Virus record (IMG/VR): IMGVR_UViG_3300035162_003660
Span: 1 to 20,021 of that record
Reading direction: 5' to 3' (one strand)
Length of the DNA: 20,021 nt
Source of the DNA: a virus
Both the position numbers and the translations under genes were made by a program. Positions 2,688-16,849 of the stretch are shown here, one piece after another (the first letter of the stretch is position 1; each line of letters begins with the position of its first letter). The notes below the pieces were generated by a model, which was not told the origin of the DNA, did no database searches, and was given only the letters and a program-made list of their open reading frames with translations.

Positions 2688-3311
2688 ATGGAAGCTATAA
2701 TAATCGGCCATGGCCCTAGCTTACTCAATAAACAATACGGCTCTTATATCGATTCGTTCGAATATGTTATAAGACAAAAAGCCAACGCAATAACATATAC
2801 CAAAGAAAACCCTGAACACTATGGTTCTAAGACCTATGCTATTGGCGGGTCAACTGGTCAGTACAATGCAATATCAAAACTGAATAACGTTCAGTGTTGG
2901 GTGTTTATCGACTCTCGAAGAAACCCAGAAGATGATTACGACAACAGGTTTAATAGCGAGACTGTTAAATGTAATCAGGCGCTTTGCCATCGATGGAACC
3001 AAGTCTTTCGTGATATGAGAACTGACGACTGGACAAGAAACGAACAAGAAGCGCAAGCCCATTCTGATCCGAAACTTGGTCACAATCATATGTCTTCGGG
3101 AACACATACACTTCTTTACACTTGTCATTACCTTCGACCTTCTAAGATATATCTCCTCGGTTACGACAATGTGCGCAGCGGCACTTTCGGTTGGTCTGTC
3201 ACAAGAGGCGAGCATTTTAAGAATTACGGCGACCATAGATATGATGTAGAACAAAAAATGCTACCTCTTTTCGAAAAAGAATTTAACACTAAAATAGAAT
3301 TTGTAATATGA
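2688..3311 (+). CDS. Putative glycosyltransferase, sialyltransferase-like (GT29/GT42-type Rossmann fold)
   Basis: The 207-residue product has GHGPS at 7-11 followed by a YIDSFEYVIRQ segment, similar to the (G)NGPS...IDxFDxVxRxN start of GT29/GT42-like transferases. SSGTH at 136-140 then begins a helix leading to IYLLGYDN at 154-161, the S/TG...LGFD element of those families, and late histidines (HFKNYGDH) could be catalytic. It is soluble, with no membrane anchor. It opens the carbohydrate cluster right after phoH. Donor and acceptor cannot be deduced, and sialic acid is not implied because no CMP-sialate genes are present. The protein at 14478 shares the same layout. Confidence 0.6.
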   Translation: MEAIIIGHGPSLLNKQYGSYIDSFEYVIRQKANAITYTKENPEHYGSKTYAIGGSTGQYNAISKLNNVQCWVFIDSRRNPEDDYDNRFNSETVKCNQALCHRWNQVFRDMRTDDWTRNEQEAQAHSDPKLGHNHMSSGTHTLLYTCHYLRPSKIYLLGYDNVRSGTFGWSVTRGEHFKNYGDHRYDVEQKMLPLFEKEFNTKIEFVI

Positions 3312-3964
3312 AAGTTTTTATTGGGTATGACCCTAGAGAAGAAGAAGCGTATCAAGTTGCTCGGGCCTCAATACTTGAACATTCGGACGTTGAAGTAGAA
3401 CCGCTAATCCGGTCCGAGCTAATGGAAAGGGGTATATTTCGTAGACAACACGACCTAAAAGCGTCTACTGAATTTACAATGACACGGTTCCTTGTTCCTT
3501 ATCTAAGCGACTACAAAGGGTATGCTTTGTTTGTTGATTGTGATATTTTATGTAACGCGGATATAAGGTCTATCCTAGACGGTGTGGACGAATCGTGTGA
3601 CGTAAGTTGTGTTCAACACGAATACACACCCAAGGGCGAATTTAAAATGGATGGTAAACTACAGCATGTTTATCCCAAGAAAAACTGGTCTTCAGTTATG
3701 CTCTTTAATAATCAAGCATGCTGGAAATTGACTCCCGACGTTGTCAATATTGTAGACCCCTCTTACTTGCATCAAATGCGGTGGGCAGATAACATAGGTT
3801 CTCTAGATCACACGTGGAACTATTTGTCTGGGTATTACCAAGATATAGATAATCCTAAGATAATTCATTACACTGATGGAGGTCCATGGTTTCCTCAATA
3901 CGAGAACTGTGACTTCGCAGAAGAATGGAAACAAGCGGCAAAATTACTAAAGGAACCCCAATGA
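3308..3964 (+). CDS. GT8-like glycosyltransferase (GT-A fold)
   Basis: The 218-residue product begins MKVFIGYDPREEEAYQVA, a start typical of phage and bacterial GT8-like enzymes. It has a metal-binding DCD at 77-79 (LFVDCDILC), a SSVMLFNN strand near 128, and a C-terminal IIHYTDGGPWF whose His is in the place of the GT8 metal-ligand histidine. This predicts a retaining, nucleotide-sugar-dependent transferase. ATGA overlap with the previous gene and another ATGA overlap with the lysozyme gene show tight coupling. Sugar and acceptor are unknown. Confidence 0.78.
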   Translation: MKVFIGYDPREEEAYQVARASILEHSDVEVEPLIRSELMERGIFRRQHDLKASTEFTMTRFLVPYLSDYKGYALFVDCDILCNADIRSILDGVDESCDVSCVQHEYTPKGEFKMDGKLQHVYPKKNWSSVMLFNNQACWKLTPDVVNIVDPSYLHQMRWADNIGSLDHTWNYLSGYYQDIDNPKIIHYTDGGPWFPQYENCDFAEEWKQAAKLLKEPQ

Positions 3965-4407
3965 ACAGAGAAGAAGTTTTTGAAACATTAAAGATAGACG
4001 AAGGCGTCGAATACCAAATTTATCTTGATCACCTTGGCTATCCAACTTTTGGAGTTGGCCACTTGGTTACGGACAATGATCCAGAAGCAGGGTTGGAAGT
4101 TGGCACAGGCATAAGCAACGAGAGAGTGTGGGAAGCGTTTGAGAGCGACCTTGACACATCAGTCGCGGAATGTCAGGTGCTCTTTCCTGGAGGAGCGTTC
4201 GACGATTTCCCAGAGGAAGTCCAGCAGGTAGTCGTTAACATGATGTTTAATATGGGTCGACCACGTCTTTCTAAGTTCAAAAAAATGTTAGCTGGATTAG
4301 AAAGCGGTGATTTTAAAACAGCAGCACTTGAAGGACGCGATTCGAAATGGTATAATCAAGTAACTAATCGCGCAGAAAGGTTAATGGCTCGGCTGGAGAA
4401 TGTCTAA
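3961..4407 (+). CDS. T4-type lysozyme (endolysin, GH24)
   Basis: The 148-residue soluble muramidase aligns by eye with T4 gene e lysozyme along its whole length: MNREEVFETLKIDEG, IYLDHLGYPTFGVGHL, VVNMMFNMG, and SKWYNQVTNRAERLM near the C-terminus. The catalytic triad is present as Glu14, Asp23 and Thr29 (T4 E11, D20, T26) with the same spacing. It has no signal or SAR segment, so it should need a holin to reach peptidoglycan; none is evident nearby. ATG 3961 (ATGA overlap) is preferred to an ATG at 3925 because it matches the T4 N-terminus. Its place between glycosyltransferase genes is unusual. Confidence 0.94.
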   Translation: MNREEVFETLKIDEGVEYQIYLDHLGYPTFGVGHLVTDNDPEAGLEVGTGISNERVWEAFESDLDTSVAECQVLFPGGAFDDFPEEVQQVVVNMMFNMGRPRLSKFKKMLAGLESGDFKTAALEGRDSKWYNQVTNRAERLMARLENV

Positions 4408-4544
4408 TGGCGCAGGCAATTAGTACAACTAAAGTGCAACACAAGCCCAAAGGTACATCCATCGGTAATGGGCATTTTAACACATCCTCTATGAATAAAA
4501 AGAAAAAAGCGGATTATAAAAAATACAGAGGACAAGGTAGGTAA
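4407..4544 (+). CDS. Small basic conserved phage protein ending in KYRGQGR
   Basis: A 45-residue ORF starts at ATG 4407, sharing one base with the lysozyme stop (TAATG). The product is basic, with HKPKGTSIGNG near 12-22, a KKKK run and the ending YKKYRGQGR. I recognise this pattern (KP..TSIG...KRxxYKxYRGQG) from many T4-like marine phages, where it is a short protein of unknown role, possibly nucleic-acid binding given its charge. Conservation of both ends makes it a confident gene despite its size. It belongs to the phage core rather than to the glycan genes around it. Confidence 0.72.
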   Translation: MAQAISTTKVQHKPKGTSIGNGHFNTSSMNKKKKADYKKYRGQGR

Positions 4545-4549
4545 CTTAA

Positions 4550-4702
4550 GTGGCGAAATATTCAAGATTTGATGCAGATAACAAGAAAAGAAACAAAGAT
4601 AAATATAGAGCCGAACGAAAGAAAGTTCGGCTTGATGATAATGAAAAGAAATTAAATTATGAGAAGATTGATATATCAAGTTTACGTCGGAAAGAAATCT
4701 AA
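4550..4702 (+). CDS. Small very basic phage protein with GTG start
   Basis: A 50-residue ORF starts at GTG 4550 (product MAKYSRFDADNKKRNKDKYR...), 5 nt after the previous stop, with AAGGTAGG upstream. It is rich in Lys, Arg and Asp, with no hydrophobic core to speak of. The KYSRFD start resembles short proteins found beside the KYRGQGR protein in other T4-like phages. Its last 44 nt overlap the start of the next glycosyltransferase in another frame, and a 24-nt hairpin lies inside it. Function is unknown. The long overlap and GTG start lower confidence, but the reading frame is clean. Confidence 0.55.
   Translation: MAKYSRFDADNKKRNKDKYRAERKKVRLDDNEKKLNYEKIDISSLRRKEI
4609..4632 (+). promoter_or_regulatory. 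Hairpin 27 nt upstream of the next gene
   Basis: AGCCGAAC (4609-4616) pairs perfectly with GTTCGGCT (4625-4632) around a GAAAGAAA loop. It lies within the small basic gene and ends 26 nt before ATG 4659. There is no downstream T run, so an RNA stability, processing or translational role is more likely than termination. Confidence 0.45.
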
Positions 4703-5444
4703 GTTATATGACGGGTGTGTTGCTTCTGTAGCAATATATTGTGCGCGACATAACATTGAACACATTGTTCAAAGAGAACCTATCCTTCGTATCAAGCCAA
4801 ATGTCTTTGCAACAAACCGTAGTAAAGAGTCCTATGAAAAGCATGGTGGGTTTCTTCCCATCTACGAAAAAGAAAACGCCTTTGACCATCTGAAAGATTA
4901 TGATCAGATTGCAATTGTCGACGCTGACATTTACATTCGAGAGTCTGCAGAGAATATATTCGAAGACTTCGGTACCGAGCATGCGTTTGGAGCAGTACTC
5001 GAATCATCAATGCCGATTACAAATCAGTATATCGCAAAGATTATTAATTATTCCACAATGCAATATCGAGGTCTTTCTAAGAAACGTAAGTATCGAGAAA
5101 TTGCAAAGATGGGCTATTCTTTTTACAATATGGGATTAATTCTTCTTAACTCTAAACAGTTCGAACCTTTCCTCAAAGGATTGTCTCCAAGAGATTGGAT
5201 AATGCAGGAAGACTTTGTTGATTTTGTTGATGGCCAAGGCGCGTGGAAATGGAGCACAGACCAGACGTTGCTTAATTATTTCCTCTTTAATTCTAAAGTA
5301 CCCACGAAAGATCTTCATTGGAAATGGAATGGTTTGTTTACTGCCAACACAAAGATAAAAGAATGTTCTTTTGTGCATTTTTTCTTAAAGGATAAATTGC
5401 CGGCAGGTGGAGAAAAATTCGAAGAATTGCTTAAGCATATATGA
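4659..5444 (+). CDS. GT8-like glycosyltransferase (GT-A fold)
   Basis: The 261-residue product begins MRRLIYQVYVGKKSKLYDGC, a strand plus helix typical of GT8-like enzymes. It has VDADIY with Asp88-X-Asp90 as the metal-binding DxD, FYNMGLILLNS near 155, a WSTDQTLLNYF acceptor/active-site-like segment, and a C-terminal FVHFFLKDKLP whose His could be the third metal ligand. It is a larger relative of the enzyme at 3308. It overlaps the upstream small gene by 44 nt and the downstream gene by ATGA. Substrates are unknown. Confidence 0.75.
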   Translation: MRRLIYQVYVGKKSKLYDGCVASVAIYCARHNIEHIVQREPILRIKPNVFATNRSKESYEKHGGFLPIYEKENAFDHLKDYDQIAIVDADIYIRESAENIFEDFGTEHAFGAVLESSMPITNQYIAKIINYSTMQYRGLSKKRKYREIAKMGYSFYNMGLILLNSKQFEPFLKGLSPRDWIMQEDFVDFVDGQGAWKWSTDQTLLNYFLFNSKVPTKDLHWKWNGLFTANTKIKECSFVHFFLKDKLPAGGEKFEELLKHI

Positions 5445-6160
5445 AAGCTCAAATTGTCTATACTTCTTCGCACGAAATTTCAAGGAAGTCTGGTTTCGAA
5501 AGTCTGTCTTCCTTTGATTCTAAGAAAGGCTGGGATGTATCTTTAATAGAAGGTATCGTTCGTGAAGACTTTGATGACCTTGTGCAAGGAAATAAGTTTC
5601 GTAATGATTTTGATGTCAAATTTGCCAAGAACGGTCGCCTATGGATGATGAAGAATGGTAACGACCCAGTCTGGAAAACAAAACAAGCTTGTGTTTTTAA
5701 TCATCTATATTTCTGGAAGAAAGTAATAGAGTCTAACGAAACACAGTGTTTTATCGAACACGATATTATCTGCGTTGCTGATGCGGAAGACTACGAATTC
5801 GAAGACTATCTAATACTGAATATGGGCGACGCGTTTACCAATAAAAAATACCCCGTGCAGAAAAACATACGAAATTACCCTATTCCAATGGATAAAAAGT
5901 ATAACAATCTTTTGGATGATAAGAGCTACCCTTTGGTGTATAATAAGAGTAATGAATGGGCGAACGCTTATATGGTTCCTGGAACTGCCTCATATGCAAT
6001 AACACCAGCCGGAGCGAAGAAGATGCTCGAAGCGGCCCTTACAATCGGCCTTGATCAATCTGATTATATACTGAATACAAAGAATTGTAATATTCAGTAT
6101 ATTAATCCTAGTCCGGTTGTTTTCAATACACAATACGTTACAACTAGTTGGGGAATGTAA
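5441..6160 (+). CDS. GT25-like glycosyltransferase
   Basis: The 239-residue product resembles LPS-type GT25 enzymes, with the ACVFNHLYFWKKVIE segment (83-97), which corresponds to the G/A-C-x-x-SH-xxLW element, then CFIEHDII with EHD at 106-108 in the position of the metal-binding ExD/EDD, and PGTASYAITPAGAKKML (186-202) matching the PGTxxYxIxxxGAxKLL motif. A LDQSDYIL segment follows, where the family has its substrate Asp. SHxxLW is changed to NHLYFW, so it is a divergent member. The TAA stop shares its last base with the ATG of the radical-SAM gene. Confidence 0.7.
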   Translation: MKAQIVYTSSHEISRKSGFESLSSFDSKKGWDVSLIEGIVREDFDDLVQGNKFRNDFDVKFAKNGRLWMMKNGNDPVWKTKQACVFNHLYFWKKVIESNETQCFIEHDIICVADAEDYEFEDYLILNMGDAFTNKKYPVQKNIRNYPIPMDKKYNNLLDDKSYPLVYNKSNEWANAYMVPGTASYAITPAGAKKMLEAALTIGLDQSDYILNTKNCNIQYINPSPVVFNTQYVTTSWGM

Positions 6161-7101
6161 TGATTAAGATTCCAGGAGCAGAAGGTAATAATCGCATACC
6201 AATGGTCGCAGTTGATCAGTGGCAAATGATAGAACATAGAAAAAAACAAGAAGCAGAACACTGGGATAAAATTCAGGAAAGGAACGCGCTCAATTCTATT
6301 CTAACAATTGAGATCAATACTACTGAACTTTGTAACCGCACATGTGTATTCTGTCCTCGACACGACCCAAAAGTATATGACAACCGAAACCTTCACCTAA
6401 CGGTAAAAGGCGCTACCATCATTGCAGAGGAACTCGAGCGGTCTTCTTTTGAAGGCAAGATATCCTTCAGCGGGTTTGGCGAGAATCTATTAAACCCTTG
6501 GTTCCCTGAAATCATCGAGGTGTTCCGCAAACATAGACCAAGTAATGTAATCGAATGTAACACTAATGGCGACAAGTTAGACGAGCATTACGCTCGAAGA
6601 ATCTTTGACGCTGGGATGTCTATAATTTACGTCAACCTTTATGATGGTATGGAACAGGTAGACCATTTTGACGAATTGTTCGACCTTGCTGGTATTACTC
6701 AAGAAAAATATAAGTACCGAGTGCACTGGGGCGGTATGGAGAACCATGGCCTCGTGTTAAACAATCGAAGCGGCGTTGTTGACTGGATGGGTATTGACGA
6801 GTCGACAATTGAAGCTGTCAAGGACAAACCCTGCTACTATCCCTTCTATAAGATGTTTGTTGATTGGAACGGTGATTGTATTCTTTGTTGCAATGATTGG
6901 AATAGAGAACAAGTAGTCGGTAATCTTATCACACAAAGCCTTAGTGATGTGTGGTTTGGTAAACCAATGACTAAGATAAGAAACAAACTGAAGAAAGGTA
7001 ATCGTACAGAAAAACCTTGTAATAAATGTAATGTGGACGGCACTTTATTTGGTAAGCCATCCTTTGATTTTATTAACGCATTAGGCGCAAACAATGAATA
7101 A
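6160..7101 (+). CDS. Radical SAM protein with SPASM-like C-terminus
   Basis: The 313-residue product has the radical-SAM CX3CX2C motif CNRTCVFC (Cys58, 62, 65) binding the 4Fe-4S cluster that cleaves SAM, a GFGENL segment near 106 in the SAM-binding GGE position, and a cysteine-rich C-terminus with Cys225, 240, 243, 244, 287 and 290 (NGDCILCCND, PCNKC) that fits a SPASM auxiliary-cluster domain. ATG 6160 is used; an in-frame TTG at 6148 is less likely because GGGGA (6149-6153) is a good Shine-Dalgarno for ATG 6160. The chemistry (sugar or peptide modification) is not deducible. Its setting among glycosyltransferases suggests glycan or glycoprotein modification. Confidence 0.87.
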   Translation: MIKIPGAEGNNRIPMVAVDQWQMIEHRKKQEAEHWDKIQERNALNSILTIEINTTELCNRTCVFCPRHDPKVYDNRNLHLTVKGATIIAEELERSSFEGKISFSGFGENLLNPWFPEIIEVFRKHRPSNVIECNTNGDKLDEHYARRIFDAGMSIIYVNLYDGMEQVDHFDELFDLAGITQEKYKYRVHWGGMENHGLVLNNRSGVVDWMGIDESTIEAVKDKPCYYPFYKMFVDWNGDCILCCNDWNREQVVGNLITQSLSDVWFGKPMTKIRNKLKKGNRTEKPCNKCNVDGTLFGKPSFDFINALGANNE

Positions 7102-7963
7102 CATATTTACCCAAATGAGTAAGAAAAACGAAAAACAAAAAACGTTTACCGTTGACCATCCTTCGTCAGTATGGAAAAAATTCAAGAGTCCTTTTCAGGT
7201 CGCAAATTTCTTAAGCAACCAAGAAAGAATGCTAGATGTAATGAAGCTACTCAGCCCTCGAAAACCAAAGGGTATGAAGAAAGTGCGAATTGGAGAACAG
7301 AATGATGGAGGTTATGTTTTTCTTGAGGACTTATTAACAAACGGCAAGGTCGCTTATTCTATTGGTATCGGTAAGACTGTCAAATTCGAAGAAGCAATTG
7401 AAACATATGGTCATCATATCTGGATGTACGACCATACCGTCGACGGTAGTCGGTTTAAGACACCCAACAGGACAATCCAGAAAATAGGAATTGGTACAAA
7501 TAACAAAGGTGAGTTTCAAACATTAAAAACAATGATTGATAGTAATGGTCATCAAAAAGAAACCAATATGCTTCTGCAGATGGATTGCGAGGGAGCAGAG
7601 TGGGAGGTCTTTGCCAATATGAATTCTGAAGACCTGCTCAGGTTATCTGGCTTCTCTCAGCTTTGTATTGAAATGCATTGGTTTGTCTCCTATTTCTCTC
7701 GAGCAGACTCGACCGATCTTATTCAGAGGGCATTAACAAATCTTCGAAAGAACTTTACGCCATGTCATGTGCACGCGAATAATTGGTCGGGGTTCTATAA
7801 GATTCCACGCGTGCCGCCAATAGCAGAAACCTTCGAAGTTACTTGGGTGCGCAATGATCTTGTAGAATGGGACGACGCCGCCGAAGAAATTTATCCAACA
7901 GAATTTGACTCGCCTTGTAACGATACAAGATATGAAATTGAATTGGGTAACGCACAATGGTAA
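7094..7963 (+). CDS. FkbM/Methyltransf_22-like SAM methyltransferase
   Basis: The 289-residue product has RIGEQNDGGYV at 65-75 and YSIGIGK at 88-94 as the SAM-binding start, MYDHTVDG at 111-118 as the acidic loop, and MDCEGAEWEVF at 163-173, the hallmark of FkbM-type O-methyltransferases, followed by LCIEMHWF near 191. A CHVHANNWSGF segment is also typical of the FkbM/METTL24 group. About 60 N-terminal residues precede the fold. It overlaps its neighbours by 8 and 7 nt. The expected role is O-methylation of a sugar within the glycan made by this cluster, an inference from family and position. Confidence 0.8.
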   Translation: MNNIFTQMSKKNEKQKTFTVDHPSSVWKKFKSPFQVANFLSNQERMLDVMKLLSPRKPKGMKKVRIGEQNDGGYVFLEDLLTNGKVAYSIGIGKTVKFEEAIETYGHHIWMYDHTVDGSRFKTPNRTIQKIGIGTNNKGEFQTLKTMIDSNGHQKETNMLLQMDCEGAEWEVFANMNSEDLLRLSGFSQLCIEMHWFVSYFSRADSTDLIQRALTNLRKNFTPCHVHANNWSGFYKIPRVPPIAETFEVTWVRNDLVEWDDAAEEIYPTEFDSPCNDTRYEIELGNAQW

Positions 7964-8751
7964 AAAACATCGCAATACGTTCGATGTCTATGTGGCGAAA
8001 AGAAGTCCCGTATACGACTCCAGGAGTCGGCGATAGAATACATGCTGTACTGTTCGGACAGAAATATGCAGATGCGCATGAGTGTGATGTTGTTCTACAT
8101 TTAACCTCTGACAAATATGGTAAGCAAGCTAAGAAAGACACATGGGCAGCATTGAGTGAAATGACACGAGGTAAAGTTACTGTCAAAGCGTGGCCGGTCT
8201 GTGGCTTAACTGAACCCGATTGGATCCAATACCTCGAGGCTCAGGGCGTAGAAGAACCACAAACTTATTACTATAAAGACTGGGTGGACCTGCAACCTCT
8301 AGGGCCAGTTAAAGGTATGGATCTTATTGACGCAGACGAATACCTGACAGAATCCCCCGTACTTGAACCCATTGATTGTTCTAGACAAATCAAATTACCG
8401 GCGCGCTATGTAACTATTCAATGGGATTCAGCAGACGGTAGTAGACAATTGTCCCCAATTCTATTGAATAAGATTGAAAATAAGTATAGAATGAAAGGAC
8501 TAGATTTAATAGTAGTTGGAGGAGAAGCTCGGAAAGAGCATTTAAGAACTTCTCTGCAGCATGTAGGGTTCTGTATGGCGCATTCTGAAGGCCATGTTGG
8601 GATTGACTCAGGAATGTTACATATGGCAACACTCTACACACCTTGGGATAAAATAGACGTTTATAATCCAATTGGAAATATTAAAGGCAAATCATCACAC
8701 CATGTGCATCGACTGCAGAAATATGGCGCTAGTGTTAATACATACGTATAA
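7957..8751 (+). CDS. GT9-like (heptosyltransferase-type) glycosyltransferase
   Basis: The 264-residue GT-B-like protein starts with GVGDRIHAVLFGQKYAD (23-39), the N-terminal glycine-rich loop of GT9, continues with YVTIQWDSADGSRQLSP near 148, LDLIVVGGEA near 183, and ends in a donor-binding half with GHVGIDSGMLHMATLY (213-228), the D-SG-xxH-xA element of ADP-heptose transferases. At 264 residues it is shorter than typical WaaC/WaaF enzymes (about 320-350). A GT9 enzyme beside heptose-activation genes is suggestive, but the donor remains unproven. Confidence 0.72.
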   Translation: MVKNIAIRSMSMWRKEVPYTTPGVGDRIHAVLFGQKYADAHECDVVLHLTSDKYGKQAKKDTWAALSEMTRGKVTVKAWPVCGLTEPDWIQYLEAQGVEEPQTYYYKDWVDLQPLGPVKGMDLIDADEYLTESPVLEPIDCSRQIKLPARYVTIQWDSADGSRQLSPILLNKIENKYRMKGLDLIVVGGEARKEHLRTSLQHVGFCMAHSEGHVGIDSGMLHMATLYTPWDKIDVYNPIGNIKGKSSHHVHRLQKYGASVNTYV

Positions 8752-8762
8752 GGAAATGAAAA

Positions 8763-9413
8763 ATGAAAGCTTGGGACGAATACAAATTCGCGAACACTGT
8801 TGAAGAAGCTCAGATTATACAAGAAACCCTTCTCACAAAAGACATTCCCGAAGAAAGCCAAAACTCGTTTAAACGATTGAAGTCGTTAATGCGATATGCT
8901 GCAAAATGTAATTCCGTAAAAGAGATTGGTATATTTCAGGGCAGTTCATTAATGGCAATGATGACTCAAGACAGCGTAAAACAAGGCGTTGGAATTGATA
9001 TTAATCTGACTGCATTTAATGCACATTTGAAACCTTTGTTGACTGAATACTGTAGCCGTACAGGAAAGACATTGAAAACTCACGGTGTCAGTTCTTTGGA
9101 CAAGTCAACTGTAAGTCCTGTTGATATGCTACACATCGACAGTTTACATAAACCCGAGCATTTAAAAAAGGAATTACAAACGCACCACGAGTCAGTATGG
9201 AAATATATTGCGTTTCACGACATAAAACAAAATGACTGGGCGTTGCTCAAAGTTATTGAAGATTTTTGCAGTACAAACTTTCAATGGTCGGTTGTAGAAA
9301 GGTTAACTGGTGGCGGCGCAGGACATGCCGTGATTGCTCGAAACGCGACTGAAGAAGACATGGGAGAAATTCAAAAGAAACCAGCTGGGCCAACAAAACG
9401 TATTAGCAGTTAA
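8763..9413 (+). CDS. Class I SAM methyltransferase (Methyltransf_24-like)
   Basis: The 216-residue product has EIGIFQGSSLMAMM at 54-67 as SAM motif I, GVGIDI at 75-80 as the acidic ribose-binding strand, VDMLHIDSLHKPEHLKKEL at 120-138 matching the DxxxIDGxH-xxxxxxxDL element of Methyltransf_24/cephalosporin-hydroxylase-like proteins, and YIAFHDI at 148-154. AAGGAAA precedes ATG 8763. It is one of three methyltransferases interleaved with GT9-like genes. The last ~80 nt may overlap the start of the next gene if that gene starts upstream of 9415. Substrate unknown, probably a sugar. Confidence 0.8.
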   Translation: MKAWDEYKFANTVEEAQIIQETLLTKDIPEESQNSFKRLKSLMRYAAKCNSVKEIGIFQGSSLMAMMTQDSVKQGVGIDINLTAFNAHLKPLLTEYCSRTGKTLKTHGVSSLDKSTVSPVDMLHIDSLHKPEHLKKELQTHHESVWKYIAFHDIKQNDWALLKVIEDFCSTNFQWSVVERLTGGGAGHAVIARNATEEDMGEIQKKPAGPTKRISS

Positions 9414-9414
9414 A

Positions 9415-10203
9415 ATGGGAATGGGAGATGATATGTTTTTTCTCGGCGAGGCTGAGAAAATCTTTAAAGAAACTGGCCAACTAGTAAGGCCAGTTGGTAG
9501 TGGTAAATCTCCTCTTTTTAATAACGTTGAGTTTCTATCGGACAGCGGAGTAACTGTCAACACAAGAGACACCACTCCAGAAAAAACAGACTATAAAATA
9601 CAGTATATGTGCTCAGAGGAGAGAAGGACTATTCTGGGTAAGAAAATGGTCTGGCGACCATATAAGATTAAACCTTTTCATATTCGATTCACCGAGAAAG
9701 AATTAGAAACCGCAGATAAAATTTTAGAAGAACACAATGTACCAAAAGAGTTTGCTGCGATCAATCCTGACTTTAAAAATACATTCTTCGGTTCGAATAA
9801 AAACTGGGGGTTTAAAAAGTATCAAGAGTTGGTGAATAGATTAGACATACCTTGCGTTCGAATAACACCAAAAGGAATCTACAAAGAACCTTTACTTAAT
9901 GGCGCAATAAATATTGAGAGTGAAGACGTTCGTGTCTCTTTTGCTGTATTGAGAAAGGCGAAGTTTGGTGTAGGTTATATCGGAATGTTTATCCATGCTC
10001 TGGGTGGTATGGGCATTCCCTGCGTTGTCTTGCAGGGTGGTATTGCAAACACTTCACTTGGTGAATATCCTGGCCATATCAATATTGAATATGACCATCC
10101 GATATCACCCTGTGGCAACACTTACGATTGCACCCATTGTGCCGACGCCAATGAATGGATGACAGTTGATATGATTTATAATGCATGTAGGGAATTAATA
10201 TGA
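9415..10203 (+). CDS. GT9-like (heptosyltransferase-type) glycosyltransferase
   Basis: The 262-residue GT-B-like protein opens MGMGDDMFFLGEAEKIF, the glycine-rich GlGD loop of GT9, and contains AAINPDFKN near 123, NWGFKKYQELVNRL near 140, and the C-terminal GVGYIGMFIHALGGMGIPCVVL donor-site region typical of heptosyltransferases (only part quoted as key residues: Gly-Met-Phe-Ile-His-Ala). A tail with C-DCTHC may bind metal. ATG 9415 is 1 nt after the previous stop. The frame stays open upstream to a TTG at 9334, and the residues just before ATG (NVLAVK) look like the first GT9 beta strand, so the true start may be upstream. Confidence 0.75.
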   Translation: MGMGDDMFFLGEAEKIFKETGQLVRPVGSGKSPLFNNVEFLSDSGVTVNTRDTTPEKTDYKIQYMCSEERRTILGKKMVWRPYKIKPFHIRFTEKELETADKILEEHNVPKEFAAINPDFKNTFFGSNKNWGFKKYQELVNRLDIPCVRITPKGIYKEPLLNGAINIESEDVRVSFAVLRKAKFGVGYIGMFIHALGGMGIPCVVLQGGIANTSLGEYPGHINIEYDHPISPCGNTYDCTHCADANEWMTVDMIYNACRELI

Positions 10204-10703
10204 GTGATCACACGATACAATTCGGCGGTAAAATTTACCCTAGACTTCAGCAAGAAGGATTTGCGTCTCAATACGCATTTCCCTTTGCGGCTAAGATCTT
10301 AAAGGGTAAAGGAGTTGATGTTGGCTGTATGAAACCAGAGTGGGCGTTTCCAGGTGCAATACCTGTTGATCTAGACTTTGATGACGAATGGGAAGCTATG
10401 AATCTGCCCGAAGGTGAATTAGATTATATCTTCTCCTCGCATTGCCTCGAGCATCTACCGGATTGGGTTGGAGTTTTAGACTACTGGCATGATCAATTAA
10501 AGGTTGGCGGTCTTCTGTTTTTATACCTGCCCAGTTATCAACAAGAGTACTGGAAACCTTGGCACAATCGCAAGCATGTTAATGTTTTAGAGCCACACAT
10601 TGTCCGTGACTATCTTCAGTCTAGAGGGAGATGGCGCGAAGTCATTGTCACAGATGGATTCGACTTAAATCATTCTTTCTACGCGACTGCCAGAAAAGTT
10701 TAA
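10200..10703 (+). CDS. Class I SAM methyltransferase (Methyltransf_11-like)
   Basis: This 167-residue single-domain methyltransferase has VDVGC at 39-43 as SAM motif I, IPVDLD at 54-59 as the acidic loop, LDYIFSSHCLEHLPDW at 74-89 as the motif II/III region common in Methyltransf_11 enzymes, and GGLLFLYLPSY near 104 as the post-motif strand. It overlaps the GT9-like gene by ATGA and the nucleotidyltransferase by one base (TAATG). Small size and position suggest sugar methylation. The motif I loop carries Cys-Met-Lys instead of the usual Gly-x-Gly, so activity should be tested rather than assumed. Confidence 0.8.
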   Translation: MSDHTIQFGGKIYPRLQQEGFASQYAFPFAAKILKGKGVDVGCMKPEWAFPGAIPVDLDFDDEWEAMNLPEGELDYIFSSHCLEHLPDWVGVLDYWHDQLKVGGLLFLYLPSYQQEYWKPWHNRKHVNVLEPHIVRDYLQSRGRWREVIVTDGFDLNHSFYATARKV

Positions 10704-11164
10704 TGAAACCAACCCCGCTGTATCCAAATCGAGTTGAAGAGCTATGCCTAGATCATAAGGTAAAGATTCTGGTGAACGGTGCGTTTGATATTCTGCACAC
10801 CGGCCACATCGATTTGTTTATGTATGCTAAGTCTCTGGGATATGTAATCTGCGCGCTTGACAGTGACGAGAGAATACGGCAGAATAAAGGAATAGATCGC
10901 CCAGTTAATTCTTTGGAAGTTAGAGCCAAGATTTTGTCTCGTATAGTTGACATTAACGAAATTTGGACATTTAACAGTGACTTAGAATTGATTTATCTTA
11001 TGAATAGAGCAGACATGAGAGTCATTGGTTCTGATTGGAAAGGTAAAGATATTGTTGGTGAAGGTCTGATCGATATTGATTTTTTTGGAAGAGTAAATGA
11101 TGAAGCAACCACAAACACCCTTGAGAATTATATTAATCGGCGAAACTTGTTGGGACACTTATAG
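10703..11164 (+). CDS. HldE C-terminal-type nucleotidyltransferase (heptose-1-phosphate adenylyltransferase-like)
   Basis: This 153-residue cytidylyltransferase-superfamily enzyme has VNGAFDILHTGHIDLF around 24-39, including HTGH (32-35), the nucleotide-binding HxGH. DRPVNSLEVRAKIL and ATTNTLENY match the RPVNxLExRxxxL and STTNxIxxI elements of the HldE/RfaE C-terminal domain. In the standard pathway that domain converts D-glycero-D-manno-heptose 1-phosphate to ADP-heptose. Glycerol-3-phosphate cytidylyltransferase is the main alternative. Here it stands alone, unlike the fused HldE of many enterobacteria. ATG 10703 (TAATG) is chosen over an upstream ATG at 10631. The last 68 nt overlap the kinase gene. 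Confidence 0.82.
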   Translation: MKPTPLYPNRVEELCLDHKVKILVNGAFDILHTGHIDLFMYAKSLGYVICALDSDERIRQNKGIDRPVNSLEVRAKILSRIVDINEIWTFNSDLELIYLMNRADMRVIGSDWKGKDIVGEGLIDIDFFGRVNDEATTNTLENYINRRNLLGHL

Positions 11165-11849
11165 GTCTGGAGCAGTAAATCGAATAAGTCCCGAAGCTCC
11201 TGTGCCCGTTTTAGATTGGTCCGGCGAGGAAACTTCCCAAGAAGGTATGGCAATGAATGTTTGTCAGAACCTTAAAAACCTTGGGGTTGAGGTAGAACTT
11301 CATACAAGGTTTGTTGAACAAAAGATAAGATACTTTAGCGGTCAACATCAGCTGTTGAGAGTAGACACTCCTCTGTTTGGCTGGTCTACCTTTGACCCCG
11401 AAGAAATAGAAGAATGGAACCCAGACGCCATCGTCATCTCTGATTATAATAAAGGGTTTGTGTCCTACGACGCCATAAGATACATTCGTACTAACTATTC
11501 TGGACCGATGTTTATTGATACCAAGAAGCCAGACCTGCAGCAATTTGACGGAATTATTACTAAGATAAATACTGACGAATGGAACCGAAGAGTCAGCGAT
11601 CATCCTGATTCAAACCAATTGATTGTTACGGGTGGTGGTGGTAAGATTACATCTGGCGAAAAAGAATGGTCACCAGAACAAATAGAAATGGTTGATGTTT
11701 GTGGTGCAGGAGATACTTTCTTTGCAGCTTACATTGTCGAATATTTGCAAACGCATAACAAATCAGATGCAATAGAATTTGCTATGAAAGCCGCTGCAAT
11801 TACTGTGCAACATTTAGGAGTCTATGCTCCGACACTGGAAGAGATATGA
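11097..11849 (+). CDS. HldE N-terminal-type PfkB kinase (heptose-7-phosphate kinase-like)
   Basis: The 250-residue PfkB-family sugar kinase has GETCWDTYRSG at 15-25, RISPEAPVPVLDW at 29-41 (a hallmark of HldE/RfaE kinase domains), QLLRVD at 85-90, VISDYNKGF at 113-121, and DVCGAGDTFFAAY at 200-212 with catalytic Asp206. HldE kinase domains have about 310-320 residues; here the segment between NLGVEVELHT and QLLRVD is about 30-40 residues short, so the lid or oligomer contacts may differ. The expected reaction is ATP-dependent phosphorylation of heptose 7-phosphate at O1. It overlaps the nucleotidyltransferase by 68 nt, and its own fold requires this start, so the overlap looks genuine. It overlaps the cupin gene by ATGA. 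Confidence 0.85.
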   Translation: MMKQPQTPLRIILIGETCWDTYRSGAVNRISPEAPVPVLDWSGEETSQEGMAMNVCQNLKNLGVEVELHTRFVEQKIRYFSGQHQLLRVDTPLFGWSTFDPEEIEEWNPDAIVISDYNKGFVSYDAIRYIRTNYSGPMFIDTKKPDLQQFDGIITKINTDEWNRRVSDHPDSNQLIVTGGGGKITSGEKEWSPEQIEMVDVCGAGDTFFAAYIVEYLQTHNKSDAIEFAMKAAAITVQHLGVYAPTLEEI

Positions 11850-12205
11850 CTAGACTAGAAGGGTTTGTAGAAAAGGCGTGGGGTTCAGAATTAATCTGGG
11901 CAACGAACGATCTGTATTGTGGTAAGTTAATGAAGTTCAACGCGGGTTGTTCGTTCTCTATGCACCTACACAAAGAGAAAGACGAGACTTGGTATGTGTT
12001 GTCGGGTAAATTTATTCTTAAATTGATCGACACAAAAAATGCTAGTGTCGCAGAGCAAATCCTAAATACTGGGGATGTGTGGAGGAACGAACCAATGCTT
12101 CCCCATCAACTTTATTGCCTCGAAGAAGGAACTATCATTGAGGTATCAACCCCTGACTCTGTGGAAGATAACTACAGAGTAGCGAAAGGAAAAGGCCGAA
12201 GGTAA
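11846..12205 (+). CDS. Cupin-fold protein, sugar isomerase/epimerase-like
   Basis: This 119-residue single cupin domain has His40-X-His42-X4-Glu47 (MHLHKEKDETWYVLSGKF) and His87 (LPHQL), the four cupin metal ligands, with GDVWRNEP as the second motif. It resembles cupins in carbohydrate clusters, including the C-terminal domain of type II phosphomannose isomerase, so it may isomerise or bind a sugar phosphate. True mannose-6-phosphate isomerase activity cannot be claimed at this length. It starts at the ATGA overlap with the kinase and is followed 5 nt later by the HAD gene. Confidence 0.75.
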   Translation: MTRLEGFVEKAWGSELIWATNDLYCGKLMKFNAGCSFSMHLHKEKDETWYVLSGKFILKLIDTKNASVAEQILNTGDVWRNEPMLPHQLYCLEEGTIIEVSTPDSVEDNYRVAKGKGRR

Positions 12206-12210
12206 ATTAA

Positions 12211-12492
12211 ATGAGATATATTGTCGACATAGACAAAACTATCTGTTTAACATTAAACAGTAATTACAGTGGTTCATTGGCGATAAGAAAACACATTGAA
12301 AAAATAAACTCTTTGTATGACGCGGGTCATGAAGTCATTTACTGGACCGCTCGTGGTGCCACTAGTAATAAGCTCTGGGGGAAATTAACTAGAGAGCAAC
12401 TTGAGGAGTGGGGATGTCGTTATACAGAACTCTGGATGAACAAACCACAATATGATGTGTGGGTAGACGATAAAGCTGATTGGATATTTTAA
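12211..12492 (+). CDS. Small HAD-superfamily phosphatase, possible heptose-bisphosphate phosphatase role
   Basis: The 93-residue cap-less HAD protein has DIDKT with nucleophile Asp6 and acid Asp8 (VDIDKTICL), YWTARG at 44-49 (motif II Thr46), Lys78 in NKP as motif III, and VDDKADW with Asp86-Asp87 as motif IV. All catalytic residues are present in a minimal size. Relatives occur in capsule and LPS clusters. In the heptose pathway a phosphatase (GmhB) acts between the kinase and the nucleotidyltransferase, and this gene lies in the same operon, so it is a candidate for that step. True GmhB is about 190 residues, so this would be a functional replacement and not an orthologue. Confidence 0.75.
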   Translation: MRYIVDIDKTICLTLNSNYSGSLAIRKHIEKINSLYDAGHEVIYWTARGATSNKLWGKLTREQLEEWGCRYTELWMNKPQYDVWVDDKADWIF

Positions 12493-12493
12493 A

Positions 12494-13192
12494 ATGAAAG
12501 TAAAAATTATTGTAATGCACGGAAATGGGATTTCAGAAAGAGGTTATAACGCCTGTCGTCGTAGTGCAAGAAAGGCTAATGGCCCTGCGTTTTGGATGAA
12601 CATATTTAAAGCTATACGCCCATGGGAAATTGAAGACCTGCAACAGAAGTATGGGTTATCATACACATATCCGACGAAAGAACCTAGGATAGATTTATCA
12701 TCAGGCTTGAGTCTTTCACCCTATGTTGGAAGTACAGATACTCGTATCGCTTGTTTCTTTTCTCACTATCTCCTCTGGAAAGAATGCGTGGACACACAAG
12801 AGCATTTTCTTATTCTAGAACATGATGCGGAATTTGTTAACCTAAGTAATTTCGAACATCTTGAGAATTCTAAGTACCAGATCATTGGGATTAACGATCC
12901 TCGAGGTGCAACGCGTCGCTCACAAGAATATCATAACTTGGTGCAAGCAAGCAATTACGCAATTGCTCCTCCTCCATACATTGATGATATACATGTGCCA
13001 CAAGGGCTTGCAGGCAATTCAGCCTACTATATAAAACCCCTTGGTGCACAAAAACTTATTGAGCTTGTTGATCAGCATGGCATTTGGCCCAACGACGCTA
13101 TTATGTGCAAACAACTACTACCTGGACTGTTGGGTCAAATTAAAAACTATTATACAAAAGTGCAAGGGTTAGTTTCAACTACTACTACATGA
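12494..13192 (+). CDS. GT25-like glycosyltransferase
   Basis: The 232-residue product has RIACFFSHYLLWKECVD at 84-100, matching the GCxxSHxxLWxxxV element of LPS GT25 enzymes, LILEHDAEF with EHD at 109-111 in the metal-site position, and QGLAGNSAYYIKPLGAQKL near 169-187 as the G-xx-xYxIxxxGAxxL donor/acceptor region, followed by WPNDAIM. The EHD variant also occurs in the proteins at 5441 and 13189. No membrane segment is present. It starts 1 nt after the HAD stop and overlaps the next GT25 gene by 4 nt, suggesting an old tandem duplication. Confidence 0.78.
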   Translation: MKVKIIVMHGNGISERGYNACRRSARKANGPAFWMNIFKAIRPWEIEDLQQKYGLSYTYPTKEPRIDLSSGLSLSPYVGSTDTRIACFFSHYLLWKECVDTQEHFLILEHDAEFVNLSNFEHLENSKYQIIGINDPRGATRRSQEYHNLVQASNYAIAPPPYIDDIHVPQGLAGNSAYYIKPLGAQKLIELVDQHGIWPNDAIMCKQLLPGLLGQIKNYYTKVQGLVSTTTT

Positions 13193-13839
13193 TGAAATCA
13201 TACGTAATAACTATAAAAGATAATGTTCTTTCTGAGCAAGCTGCAGAAAGATGTATTCGATCGATGCCAGATTTTAACGTATTAAAGTTCTACGGCATTA
13301 CTCCAAAGGACAACCCTCTAGAGATATTGAAAATAGAATCAATACCTGTTTCTGGGTTCCAAGAAAAGTATTCTTATCTTGAGTCTTGCATTGCGGCGTT
13401 TCTTTCTCATTATGCTCTATGGAAAAAATGTGTAGAGGATAAAGTAGAATATCAAATCTTCGAGCACGATGCTTTCTGCGTCGGAGAGTTACCTGAGTTT
13501 ATAAATTATGACAAAGCGATATCTTTAGGCAAACCAAGTTATGGCAACTTCAACACCCCACTAGTGTTAGGAACTAATCCTCTTGTTTCCAAGCGTTACT
13601 TTCCTGGGGCGCATGCGTATCGAATAAAACCAGCTGGCGCTAAAGAGCTGGTCGCGCGCGCGAAGGTTGATGGTGGGCCGACAGACGTTTTCTTACACCT
13701 TGACAAATTCCCTTGGTTGCAAGAGTATTACCCTTGGCCGGTAGTCGCAAAAGACTCTTTCACTACAATACAGAAAACGCAAGGTTGTTTGGCGAAACAT
13801 AATTGGCATGATGGAGTGGGTTATGAAATCGTACGATAA
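13189..13839 (+). CDS. GT25-like glycosyltransferase
   Basis: The 216-residue product has CIAAFLSHYALWKKCVE at 67-83, YQIFEHDAF with EHD at 92-94, and PGAHAYRIKPAGAKELV near 143-159, the same three blocks as its neighbour at 12494. It lacks the C-terminal tail of larger GT25 enzymes. ATG 13189 and ATG 13192 are both possible starts (ATGATGA over the previous stop). The two adjacent GT25 proteins are alike in motifs but not near-identical, so any duplication is not recent. Substrate unknown. Confidence 0.77.
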   Translation: MMKSYVITIKDNVLSEQAAERCIRSMPDFNVLKFYGITPKDNPLEILKIESIPVSGFQEKYSYLESCIAAFLSHYALWKKCVEDKVEYQIFEHDAFCVGELPEFINYDKAISLGKPSYGNFNTPLVLGTNPLVSKRYFPGAHAYRIKPAGAKELVARAKVDGGPTDVFLHLDKFPWLQEYYPWPVVAKDSFTTIQKTQGCLAKHNWHDGVGYEIVR

Positions 13840-14485
13840 AGTATTTGTAACTGGTTGCGACAAAAATACCGAGTGGCAGTTAGAATGGTTCTTAAAAAAC
13901 TTTAAGAAACATAATAAGACAATACCCATCGTCTTCGCCAACTTTGGAGTGTCCGATGAAAAGCGAGAATGGATCTACAAGGTAAGCGCGTTTGATGACA
14001 TTATCGATATTCCTAAGCAACGAATGAATGGGTGGTTTTTAAAACCTAAGACATTGAATCTTATAGATGCTCATAAGCTCTGCTGGCTTGACACTGACTG
14101 TGAGGTCTTAGAAAACGTAGAAGACATATGGAATCATTGCGAACCAGACAAGCTTGGGATGTGCGAAGACAGACCATGGTCTAAACGTTCTGGAGAGAAA
14201 TGGTTTAATTCAGGTGTTATGGCAATTATAGATAAACCAAGAATACTGGGTGCTTGGATTGACGCGTGTGCCAAGAAACCAAAACAAGGCGATCAAGAAG
14301 TTTTGCATTTTATGATGGTTAATCCGATAAACCAGATTACTCATATTAGCCAGTTACCACATATGTATAACTGGCTACGGATTGATGTAGAACACGATTC
14401 AACAGATAGTGTAAATAAAAGAATTATGCATTGGACTGGTGAAAAGGGTAATAACGTGATAAGGAAGAAAATTTATAATGGTTGA
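13823..14485 (+). CDS. GT8-like glycosyltransferase (GT-A fold)
   Basis: The 220-residue product starts MKSYDKVFVTGCDKNTEWQL, has CWLDTDCEV with Asp90-X-Asp92 as the DxD motif, WFNSGVMAI near 131, GDQEVLHFMM near 154, and a C-terminal IMHWTGEKG with the HxxG-type His of retaining GT8-like enzymes. ATG 13823 is chosen because GGAG (13813-13816) lies 6 nt upstream; in-frame ATGs at 13808 and 13811 are possible. It overlaps the neighbouring genes by 17 and 8 nt. Related in motifs to the proteins at 3308 and 4659. Confidence 0.72.
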   Translation: MKSYDKVFVTGCDKNTEWQLEWFLKNFKKHNKTIPIVFANFGVSDEKREWIYKVSAFDDIIDIPKQRMNGWFLKPKTLNLIDAHKLCWLDTDCEVLENVEDIWNHCEPDKLGMCEDRPWSKRSGEKWFNSGVMAIIDKPRILGAWIDACAKKPKQGDQEVLHFMMVNPINQITHISQLPHMYNWLRIDVEHDSTDSVNKRIMHWTGEKGNNVIRKKIYNG

Positions 14486-15236
14486 AAAAGTTTGGCATGT
14501 AATAGGTAACGGCGACCTCGCGGCAGTATACAAATTTAGAGAAAGAGTAGGCAAAAAACTAATCTGTAATATGCCCCCTTTCGAAATGCCCGCTTCCGAA
14601 GTGTATGGCACAGCAATGGTCGACTTCAAGATGATGATGGCGTTGACGGGTGGTTCGGTAAACCTTGATATGTATCCATGGATTTTAGGCACTCGGCCTC
14701 GAATGTGGATGGATGATCCTAAACAATCAAACTTCTATTTAAAATATGCTCCGAATGTTAGAGAGTTTTATACGGACGTACCAAAATACGCAAAGAACGC
14801 CACTAACTTTAATTGTGGAATGATGGCAGTACACTATGCCATTCACAAGAAGAAAGCAGACGTTGTCCATATGTATGGGTTTGATACATTGTTCGATTTT
14901 AATATGCGCTCGATTACAGATCTTTATTTGAACAGTGATCGAGGCAATATAAACAACTTTCGGCTTATAGAGAATTGGAGGCCAGTGTGGAACGGTATCT
15001 TCAAAGAAGCGGAGAAAACAACGGGAACAAAATTTATTCTTCATCACAATCATGACAAGCTTAAAATTACCACCCGCGATAATATGTCTGTTGAAACCTA
15101 TGACTTGAAAGAAGAAAAAAAGAAGAGTAAGATAAAGTCTTCTGGTGAAGAAATTACTAAAGAACAATTTAACAATATGAACCGCCACCAGAAAAGAGCA
15201 TATGAAGCTCAACTTCGTAAAGGGATATTAGGATAG
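14478..15236 (+). CDS. Putative glycan-related transferase with sialyltransferase-like layout and charged tail
   Basis: The 252-residue product has VIGNGDL at 8-14 and an early ICNMPPFE (29-36), then NFNCGMMAVHYAIHKKKADVVHMYGFDTLFD at 110-140 in outline: a Cys-Gly start, a helix, and a strand ending in MYGFD. This matches the G-N-G start and the later SG...LGFD block of the protein at 2688, although sequence identity looks low. Residues 211-230 are Lys/Glu-rich, and the tail ITKEQFNNMNRHQKRAYEA looks like a separate helix, perhaps for partner binding. Assignment to GT29/GT42-like enzymes is tentative. It closes the glycan cluster, 1 nt before the exonuclease gene. Confidence 0.5.
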   Translation: MVEKVWHVIGNGDLAAVYKFRERVGKKLICNMPPFEMPASEVYGTAMVDFKMMMALTGGSVNLDMYPWILGTRPRMWMDDPKQSNFYLKYAPNVREFYTDVPKYAKNATNFNCGMMAVHYAIHKKKADVVHMYGFDTLFDFNMRSITDLYLNSDRGNINNFRLIENWRPVWNGIFKEAEKTTGTKFILHHNHDKLKITTRDNMSVETYDLKEEKKKSKIKSSGEEITKEQFNNMNRHQKRAYEAQLRKGILG

Positions 15237-15237
15237 A

Positions 15238-15894
15238 ATGTTTAAACACGCTCCGGTCGATCTAGGGTACGATGATTTATTAACAGAACAGAAAAACAAT
15301 AAGAGGCATTATCGCTCTGGTTCGAATCTATACCCGTCAATCACAACTGTGTTGAGTATTTTGAGCCAAGAGGGAATCGCTAAATGGCGTGACAAAGTCG
15401 GACACGAAGAAGCGGATAAGATTTCATATCGAGCTGCAACACGGGGTACAGCGGTACACGAAATAATCGAGAAGTACATAAACAACGATCCAGATTATCA
15501 ATCTGGTTATATGCCAAACATTATTGGCAATTTCTTATCCGTTAAGGATGTGTTAGATGAAAGAATCGGTACTGTCTATGGTCAAGAGCTACCACTTTTT
15601 TCTGATCATTTACGCGTTGCTGGGCGGGTCGATTGCGTTGCTGAATTTGACGGCAAGAATTCAATCATCGACTTCAAAACCAGTCGAAAACGCAAGCTAC
15701 GAAAATACACTACCAACTACTTTCAGCAAGAATCTGCCTACGCTATTATGTGGGAAGAACGTACCAGAATGCCAATTACCCAGCTCGTTACCATAATTGC
15801 AGTCGACGATTCTAAACCGCAAGTGTTCATAGAACATAGAGACGACTGGGCTCCAGAACTTCTTAAGACAATAAAACTCTTCGAAAATCAATAG
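15238..15894 (+). CDS. PD-(D/E)XK exonuclease (Cas4/MGME1-like)
   Basis: The 218-residue nuclease has GTAVHEIIEKYI with His74, VAGRVDCVAEFDG with Asp132, IIDFKTSRK with Asp145 and Lys147, and YFQQESAYAIMWEE with Gln163 in the RecB-type QxxxY element. These are the ordered motifs of Cas4/RecB/MGME1-like nucleases, common in T4-like marine phages as putative single-strand exonucleases for replication or recombination. It lacks the four cysteines of true Cas4, so no iron-sulfur cluster is expected. ATG 15238 is 1 nt after the previous stop. Its stop codon lies inside the first promoter repeat. Confidence 0.85.
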   Translation: MFKHAPVDLGYDDLLTEQKNNKRHYRSGSNLYPSITTVLSILSQEGIAKWRDKVGHEEADKISYRAATRGTAVHEIIEKYINNDPDYQSGYMPNIIGNFLSVKDVLDERIGTVYGQELPLFSDHLRVAGRVDCVAEFDGKNSIIDFKTSRKRKLRKYTTNYFQQESAYAIMWEERTRMPITQLVTIIAVDDSKPQVFIEHRDDWAPELLKTIKLFENQ

Positions 15895-15955
15895 CTTACC
15901 TGTGGTTTTATTCCATCGTTTTTCAAGGTATAATTACCTTGTAAGCAAAAAAGGA
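15887..15955 (+). repeat. Direct repeat copy 1 (promoter module)
   Basis: This ~69-bp unit recurs 473 bp downstream at 16360-16427. Over the first 60 aligned positions 51 are identical by hand count, and 7 of the 9 differences fall in the 18-nt promoter spacer. The copy includes the exonuclease stop codon, a promoter and the ribosome-binding region of the next gene. Conservation confined to the functional parts argues for a dispersed promoter cassette. Confidence 0.85.
15905..15934 (+). promoter_or_regulatory. Sigma70/T4-early-like promoter P1
   Basis: A -35-like GTTTTA (15905-15910, within TGTGGTTTTATT) and a consensus -10 TATAAT (15929-15934) are separated by 18 nt. GTTTTA resembles the GTTTAC of T4 early promoters. 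The -10 is centred in a perfect palindrome, AAGGTATAATTACCTT (15925-15940). A start near 15941 would give a leader of about 22 nt with AAAGGACGG before ATG 15963. Confidence 0.75.
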
Positions 15956-15962
15956 CGGAAAA

Positions 15963-16349
15963 ATGATAGCAGTATACCAGTGGCACCTCTCTAACGAATT
16001 GTCTGACCTCATTAATCGTGATGGTTGGATGGCTAATGAAACCACTACGGCTTACGCTGATAAGGGTTGCAGTTGGATGATTGATGATGGTCAATTTGAC
16101 GCTGCTAAGTGGTTTGACCAATATGAATTGGTCGCTACCTGCAAAACGGATGATCCTGAAGAAGCGTTTGTTCTGATGAACCTCTGGAATGATCCTGACC
16201 GAGTTTGCAAAATCGGTGCTCAGGTCGCTTCCTTGTCAATTGGTGATATCCTTGAAGTTGCTGGTGGTAAATTTCTTCTCTGTACTGGTGAGGGTTTCCA
16301 GGAAATCTTTCCTGTAAACGGCCATATCACTAGAGTTGCTGCTGGTTAA
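15963..16349 (+). CDS. Protein of unknown function, first gene behind promoter P1
   Basis: The 128-residue acidic soluble protein starts MIAVYQWHLSNELSDLINRD. It has a C-terminal block SIGDILEVAGGKFLLCTGEGFQEI (key residues: Gly-Asp, then GGKFLLC, then GF), which looks like a small beta-rich domain reminiscent of YodL-like or plasmid-associated proteins where a (S)VGD-xxxxxGxxYxCxxxGF pattern occurs; the resemblance is from memory. It is followed by its own promoter-bearing gap, so it may be a single-gene early unit. No catalytic motif is recognised. Function unknown; a host-takeover role would fit the position but is not shown. Confidence 0.7.
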   Translation: MIAVYQWHLSNELSDLINRDGWMANETTTAYADKGCSWMIDDGQFDAAKWFDQYELVATCKTDDPEEAFVLMNLWNDPDRVCKIGAQVASLSIGDILEVAGGKFLLCTGEGFQEIFPVNGHITRVAAG

Positions 16350-16359
16350 TTTGAAGAAT

Positions 16360-16427
16360 ATCAATAACTTAGCTGTGGTTTTATTTCAGGACTTTACATG
16401 GTATAATTACCTTGTAAGCAAAAAGGA
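16360..16427 (+). repeat. Direct repeat copy 2 (promoter module)
   Basis: Second copy of the unit at 15887-15955, constant offset 473 up to the A run, where it is one base shorter. It fills most of the gap between the genes at 15963 and 16437; the remaining ~10 nt on either side show no other feature. Confidence 0.85.
16378..16407 (+). promoter_or_regulatory. Sigma70/T4-early-like promoter P2
   Basis: GTTTTA at 16378-16383 and TATAAT at 16402-16407 have the same 18-nt spacing as P1. The -10 again sits inside a palindrome, GGTATAATTACC (16400-16411). AAAAAGGAG (16420-16428) is an excellent Shine-Dalgarno for ATG 16437. It probably drives the run of short genes that follows. Confidence 0.75.
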
Positions 16428-16436
16428 GTTAGCGTA

Positions 16437-16664
16437 ATGAATAGAGCAACTGTCGCAGTCAGGTCTGTCTTAATAGGTAAAAAGTTTGATATCAGTTTTC
16501 CTATTGATGGCATGTTTCGGATTGATTTTACAGAGAAAAGTAAGTATGGTGTTTACCAGCTGCCTCTCACCTTGAAGAATAAATTCTTAAAGGGCGTCCC
16601 GCTGACAAATCTTCCTGAAGAGCAGATTTCTGTTATAAAAAAACTAATTGAAGAGGTGGCGTAA
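16437..16664 (+). CDS. Small protein of unknown function
   Basis: The 75-residue product starts MNRATVAVRSVLIGKKFDIS and ends with a helix (LPEEQISVIKKLIEEVA). The first part alternates hydrophobic residues as in short beta strands (FDISFP, FRIDF). It is first behind promoter P2, with a strong Shine-Dalgarno sequence, and its TAA overlaps the next ATG by one base. I do not recognise the family. Confidence 0.7.
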   Translation: MNRATVAVRSVLIGKKFDISFPIDGMFRIDFTEKSKYGVYQLPLTLKNKFLKGVPLTNLPEEQISVIKKLIEEVA

Positions 16665-16849
16665 TGGATCGAGTTAAATTAAAACATGAAGTGGGTTCGG
16701 TGTACATCCCTTTGGATCGACGTCGCAAAGCTGAACATAGGTTTGAAGGCGCGGAATTCGATGAAACTTTTATGCAAGGCGTCATTGGTTCTTTTATCGG
16801 TTCAATGGTTATCTTTGGAACCCTGTTCGCAATCGTGGTGATTTTATAA
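16664..16849 (+). CDS. Small protein with C-terminal membrane segment
   Basis: The 61-residue product has a charged N-terminal half (VYIPLDRRRKAEHRFEGAEF) and one predicted transmembrane helix from about residue 38 to the C-terminus (GVIGSFIGSMVIFGTLF and following Ile/Val). With no signal peptide, a tail-anchored inner-membrane topology with the N-terminus inside is likely. It overlaps both neighbours by one base (TAATG). Unknown family; small early membrane proteins of phages sometimes act in superinfection exclusion, but no specific match is seen. Confidence 0.65.
   Translation: MDRVKLKHEVGSVYIPLDRRRKAEHRFEGAEFDETFMQGVIGSFIGSMVIFGTLFAIVVIL

Follow-up and report, generated by a model that had tools for sequence, protein, structure and literature searches.

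The repeated segment and the genes around it

The locus lies within a window of 20,021 nt (the whole stretch of viral DNA that was analysed), and all the features described here are on the + strand. A PD-(D/E)XK exonuclease gene (15238..15894; 218 aa; PF12705 and phrog_298) is followed by two ORFs whose function is not assigned, one of 128 aa (15963..16349) and one of 75 aa (16437..16664). Further upstream (2688-15236), a reading of the translations by eye only suggests an extended series of ORFs of glycosyltransferase, methyltransferase and sugar-nucleotide type. A repeat search of the 20,021-nt window returned a pair of direct repeats (15883-15951 and 16356-16424), each 69 nt long, spaced by 473 bp and identical at 59/69 positions (86%), which bears out the ~68-bp repeats at this spacing described in the initial annotation. 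No longer repeat is present in the window and this pair exceeds the others by far, the best match to copy 1 elsewhere in the window, on either strand, reaching 34/69.

Between the two copies, the -35-like GTTTTA (15905..15910 and 16378..16383; 6/6), the -10 block GGTATAAT (8/8), the N7 segment TACCTTG (7/7) and the leader core TAAGCAAAAA (10/10) are identical, while the inner spacer between -35 and -10 retains 9/16 positions, with about half changed, and the upstream flank 7/21. The -10 TATAAT is found at 15929..15934 in copy 1, with GG immediately before it, and at 16402..16407 in copy 2; the putative leader and initial transcribed region of copy 1, TACCTTGTAAGCAAAAAAGGA (15935..15955), and the leader of copy 2, TACCTTGTAAGCAAAAAGGAG (16408..16428), both include a Shine-Dalgarno sequence. 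The earlier proposal that only promoter parts are constrained holds for the -35, the -10 and the leader, with a diverged spacer, but it left out the 13 nt at 15886-15898 / 16359-16371, which precede the -35 and agree at 11/13 positions. This upstream end, where both blocks fit the IHF consensus, is the most informative part of the repeat.

These two blocks, AATCAATAGCTTA (15886..15898) and TATCAATAACTTA (16359..16371), each match WATCARNNNNTTR at 9/9 positions and lie 43 nt before TATAAT, the first one overlapping the stop codon of the exonuclease gene. An A-tract (AAAA, 15873..15876) is located at -13..-10 from the consensus of site 1, in the same register as in lambda H' and H2, and an A/T tract (TTAA, 16346..16349) accompanies site 2. 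As read from the sequence, the order of the module is IHF site, weak -35, TATAAT, TAAGCAAAAA leader, Shine-Dalgarno sequence and small gene. The cassettes are missing from the listing of a sigma70 promoter scan, because GTTTTA is far from TTGACA. Additionally, the hairpin check of the window found no terminator-like hairpin adjoining either copy, in agreement with the absence of a stem-loop noted initially.

The genes behind the repeats are indeed unrelated, as had been proposed, since the 128-aa and 75-aa genes fall in separate BLAST groups. We found no relatives of the 75-aa protein, and near and distant BLAST comparisons of this region with phage records gave no match. The 75-aa gene is absent from the related record G001, where copy 2 leads directly into the next gene; in the window, this indel is bounded by an 8-bp repeat, GCGTAATG (left copy at 16432..16439, right copy at 16659..16666).

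Cassette copies and gene order in related phages

The cassette family was searched for with the pattern GGTATAAT-N7-TAAGCAAAAA, which was designed without the upstream block. Related contigs (at least a dozen records) carry the cassette, which precedes unrelated genes across the family, and G001 also has both repeat copies. In G004 (a 131-kb relative, T4-type by its Gp23 match of 496 bits), at least ten cassettes with an assigned gene share a single strand, nine of these clustering in ~15.5 kb, and the T4-type late motifs TATAAATA of this genome form a set distinct from the cassettes. By major capsid protein, the closest named phages are C48C1 (65%), Melnitz (60%) and HTVC008M (59%). Used as a query, the consensus cassette gave weak matches only, and a pattern scan of bacterial genomes yielded a count that we estimate to be about the chance expectation, so the cassette does not seem to be a general host promoter type. 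Based on these comparisons, the repeats are copies of a predicted promoter cassette that is employed repeatedly in an uncultured group of T4-type phages.

The alignment between the window and G001 switches in identity between 15941 and 15962, inside the cassette leader: identity is 85% in the exonuclease gene and 53/69 positions (~77%) in promoter 1, but ~97-100% over 15962-16399 and over the 128-aa gene together with promoter 2 (the DNA of the 128-aa ORF being 97.4% identical and its flanks not). Between G001 and L125, promoter 1 agrees at 65/69 positions and the gene at only ~60-86%. The order of promoter-gene units also differs among phages of the clade, with the MSTRATY unit beside the MIKSDL unit in six records and after MNQRMKK in L211. 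To judge from these comparisons, the gene blocks between cassettes are swapped among phages, presumably by recombination. The initial suggestion that new genes could be captured together with a ready promoter is plausible; what can be seen is the exchange of existing units and the presence or absence of one gene.

The IHF-consensus element upstream of the promoter

The 13-bp IHF consensus is given as WATCAANNNNTTR (PMC7581858), and every copy of the family that was found had AATCAATAACTTA or a similar sequence upstream. We assembled a set of 33 non-redundant clade promoters, with -35 GTT[TG], TATAAT, a Shine-Dalgarno sequence and an ORF as sole criteria; the set covers one promoter class and several of its source records are fragments. 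In this set (13/33 of which comes from records fetched by an element-containing pattern), the consensus WATCARNNNNTTR is matched at 8/9 or more positions in 32/33 promoters, and perfectly in 23, against a background for the same threshold of 0.6% of random positions and of 5/307 at other TATAATs. In the records not fetched via the element (the window, G001, G003, G004, G006 and G007), all 19 of 19 promoters have the site, 13 of them in its perfect form. The geometry is also constant: the site sits at -43/-42 from TATAAT, with hardly any other offset, and the -35 GTT is exactly 19 nt past the first base of the site in 32/32 cases.

Across the aligned sites, C, A, T and T are invariant and the variation tracks the IHF consensus, in which G is also permitted at position 6. 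The promoters of one ortholog pair, G004:77427 and G006:10211 (93% identical proteins), carry AATCAATAACTTA and TATCAGCTAGTTG, respectively, which differ only at positions that are degenerate in the consensus. An A/T 4-mer is present at -13..-10 in 29/32 sites (background 0.117) and, among the lambda control sites, which we take to be H', H2 and H1, the first two have A-tracts in the same register and H1 does not.

A wider viral set was fetched with TCAAYAACTTA-N26-30-GTATAAT, and the two flanking consensus positions outside this pattern were scored; they fit in 48/65 viral versus 18/94 bacterial matches (p=5e-12). Many of these viral matches carry different -35 boxes, so the arrangement may extend beyond the clade. 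The IHF-promoter pattern is found eight times in G004, three times in G003 and twice in G001, and pattern search found it at chance level or absent in T4, RB49, RB43, KVP40, Aeh1, S-PM2, phiM12, phiM19, HTVC008M and C48C1; since these named T4-type phages are without the arrangement, it is not a property of T4-type phages as a whole. No gene of PF00216 (the IHF/HU family) was found in the phage records, so the host would have to supply the protein.

The element was also observed elsewhere. In FelixO1 (L407, NC_005282), AATCAATAACTTA, a perfect IHF consensus, occupies 11235-11247, 21 nt upstream of a TTGACA promoter-like sequence; Salmonella IHF mutants resist FelixO1 and Aji_GE, and the role of IHF in this is unexplained (PMC8744999). 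The same A-tract plus AATCAATAACTTA precedes an orthologous gene in the Aeromonas phages 4L372D (L402 1514-1526) and phiA047 (L403 806-818), whose genus is unrelated. In L147, L158, L159, L168, L169 and L185, a TGTAC/TATAAT promoter is preceded by two AAATCAATAACTTA with ~30 bp between them, so that the element occurs there in tandem.

Interpretation and comparison with known systems

The explanation that we favour (with a probability of about 0.74) is an early-type sigma70 promoter module with a site for host IHF, recombining between its copies. In the proposed mechanism, host IHF, whose presence is assumed, would bind WATCARNNNNTTR roughly between -55 and -43, with the A-tract near -67, and would sharply bend the DNA, thereby helping RNA polymerase at a promoter with a weak -35 (GTTTTA) and a perfect -10 (GGTATAAT). 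The transcript would then begin near TAAGCAAAAA and lead into the Shine-Dalgarno sequence of the small gene. Homologous recombination between module copies would swap gene-plus-promoter blocks, since a genome holds many copies whose leaders are almost the same. The nucleotide data show directly that the module recurs, that its site fits the consensus in a constant register and at a fixed spacing, where the breakpoint falls and that gene order varies; IHF binding, an activating and not a repressing effect, expression early in infection and the host bacteria, which are probably proteobacterial, are inferred.

An unlikely, though not negligible, alternative, in part compatible with the favoured explanation, is that the cassette is a genuine PeSL, a promoter joined to a stem-loop terminator, which lost its hairpin in both window copies. 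A PeSL is defined by its stem-loop, and those of T4-type phages were reportedly described by Arbiol in 2010 and Comeau in 2014. PeSLs (PMC4503421) are repeated early-promoter cassettes that lie between small genes of T4-type phages and shuffle gene blocks. The present cassette resembles them in being a predicted early-type sigma70 promoter (its timing deduced), intergenic and carried by T4-type phages, in its near-identical copies (two in this 20-kb window, ten or more in G004), in the apparent shuffling of gene blocks (leader breakpoint and varying unit order) and in the terminator hairpin fused to it in some relatives, a hairpin with a T run adjoining or inside the cassette being present in 7/35 members, compared with 6/600 control windows. 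Nevertheless, the stem-loop is absent at the window copies and in 28/35 sampled members, what is conserved beside the promoter is here the IHF-consensus site at a fixed distance, and RB49 and T4 are, by pattern search of their records, without such an IHF-like site. The PeSL-like mobile cassette of the initial annotation is thus upheld in its recurrence and shuffling, but not in its defining stem-loop.

Among the hairpins observed, a terminator-like one (TGCCC-TTCG-GGGCA-ATTTTT) lies within the -35/-10 spacer of the cassette in L100 (G004:77168) and L165 (~10949-10995). In L135, L144, L211 and L213 a terminator is located upstream of the cassette and its T run seems to replace the IHF A/T tract, so that one sequence may serve both as terminator and as IHF site.

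We regard it as improbable that the element is recognised by a different activator, whether of the phage or of the host, or that it is a specialised UP element for alpha-CTD, its likeness to IHF sites being coincidental. In the NNNN part TAAC predominates (T23 A24 A28 C27 of 32), a bias that speaks against IHF in being tighter than its consensus requires, so a different protein is conceivable; early promoters need their factor at once, which a virion-borne or non-IHF host protein could supply, and the phages are themselves without an IHF/HU gene. However, the departures TATCAGCTAGTTG, AATCAGGCACTTA and AATCAAAGGCTTA fall where IHF tolerates change, the A/T tract keeps the register of the lambda IHF sites, and UP elements are A/T tracts without invariant CA and TT. 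The presence of AATCAATAACTTA in the unrelated Aeromonas phages and in FelixO1 also points to a widely shared host protein.

That a single promoter was recently duplicated in place, and that the repeats signify nothing more, has hardly any probability left: the window copies are the closest pair within the window and share even the N7, but recent tandem duplication is ruled out by the cassette family, with its unrelated genes, its dozen or more related records and both copies in G001, and the motif, which might have been unique to these two places as the initial annotation envisaged, has at least ten copies in G004 and many relatives. A functional role for the -10 quasi-palindrome CAAGGTA-TAAT-TACCTTG, as the operator of a repressor or as a hairpin in the RNA, is just as improbable and was rejected, as its 7-bp arms, perfect in copy 1, are broken on one side in copy 2, lost in L007, L008 and most members, and show neither conservation nor covariation; anti-Shine-Dalgarno pairing (CCTT/AAGG) in the leader is lost in variants such as AATATCA and AGATCTA.

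Returning to the IHF-assisted module, we give even odds to the broader proposition that a lytic T4-type lineage wired host IHF into nearly all of its early-class promoters, that IHF is a host factor required for infection, and that the module acts as a recombination joint for small early genes; the novelty claimed for the module is relative to the open-access literature. If true, about a dozen IHF-promoter modules of fixed geometry in one T4-type phage would tie lytic early expression to a host nucleoid protein. Promoter-borne IHF sites would also be a testable explanation for the FelixO1/Aji_GE resistance of Salmonella IHF mutants, and the module would be a clean case of promoter cassettes serving as gene-exchange joints.

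Among known systems, C48C1, Melnitz and HTVC008M are the closest relatives by major capsid protein, but C48C1 and HTVC008M are without the IHF-promoter pattern and in Melnitz the bare IHF consensus is at control level. IHF at early promoters is already known from the temperate phages Mu and lambda. For lambda PL, PMC2753651 (citing Giladi 1998) places IHF at a phage early promoter; the likeness would lie in an IHF bend aiding such a promoter, a likely mechanism by analogy, but PL is a single promoter and our scan found no 8/9 match in 35400-35850, whereas the site here is canonical. Phage Mu Pe has an upstream IHF consensus site in the same orientation, with a positive effect (PMC3820752), and so shares with the module both the position upstream of a phage early promoter and the orientation. 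Mu, however, is a temperate phage with a single such promoter and a site much further upstream, whereas here many promoters of T4-type phages have the site abutting the -35.
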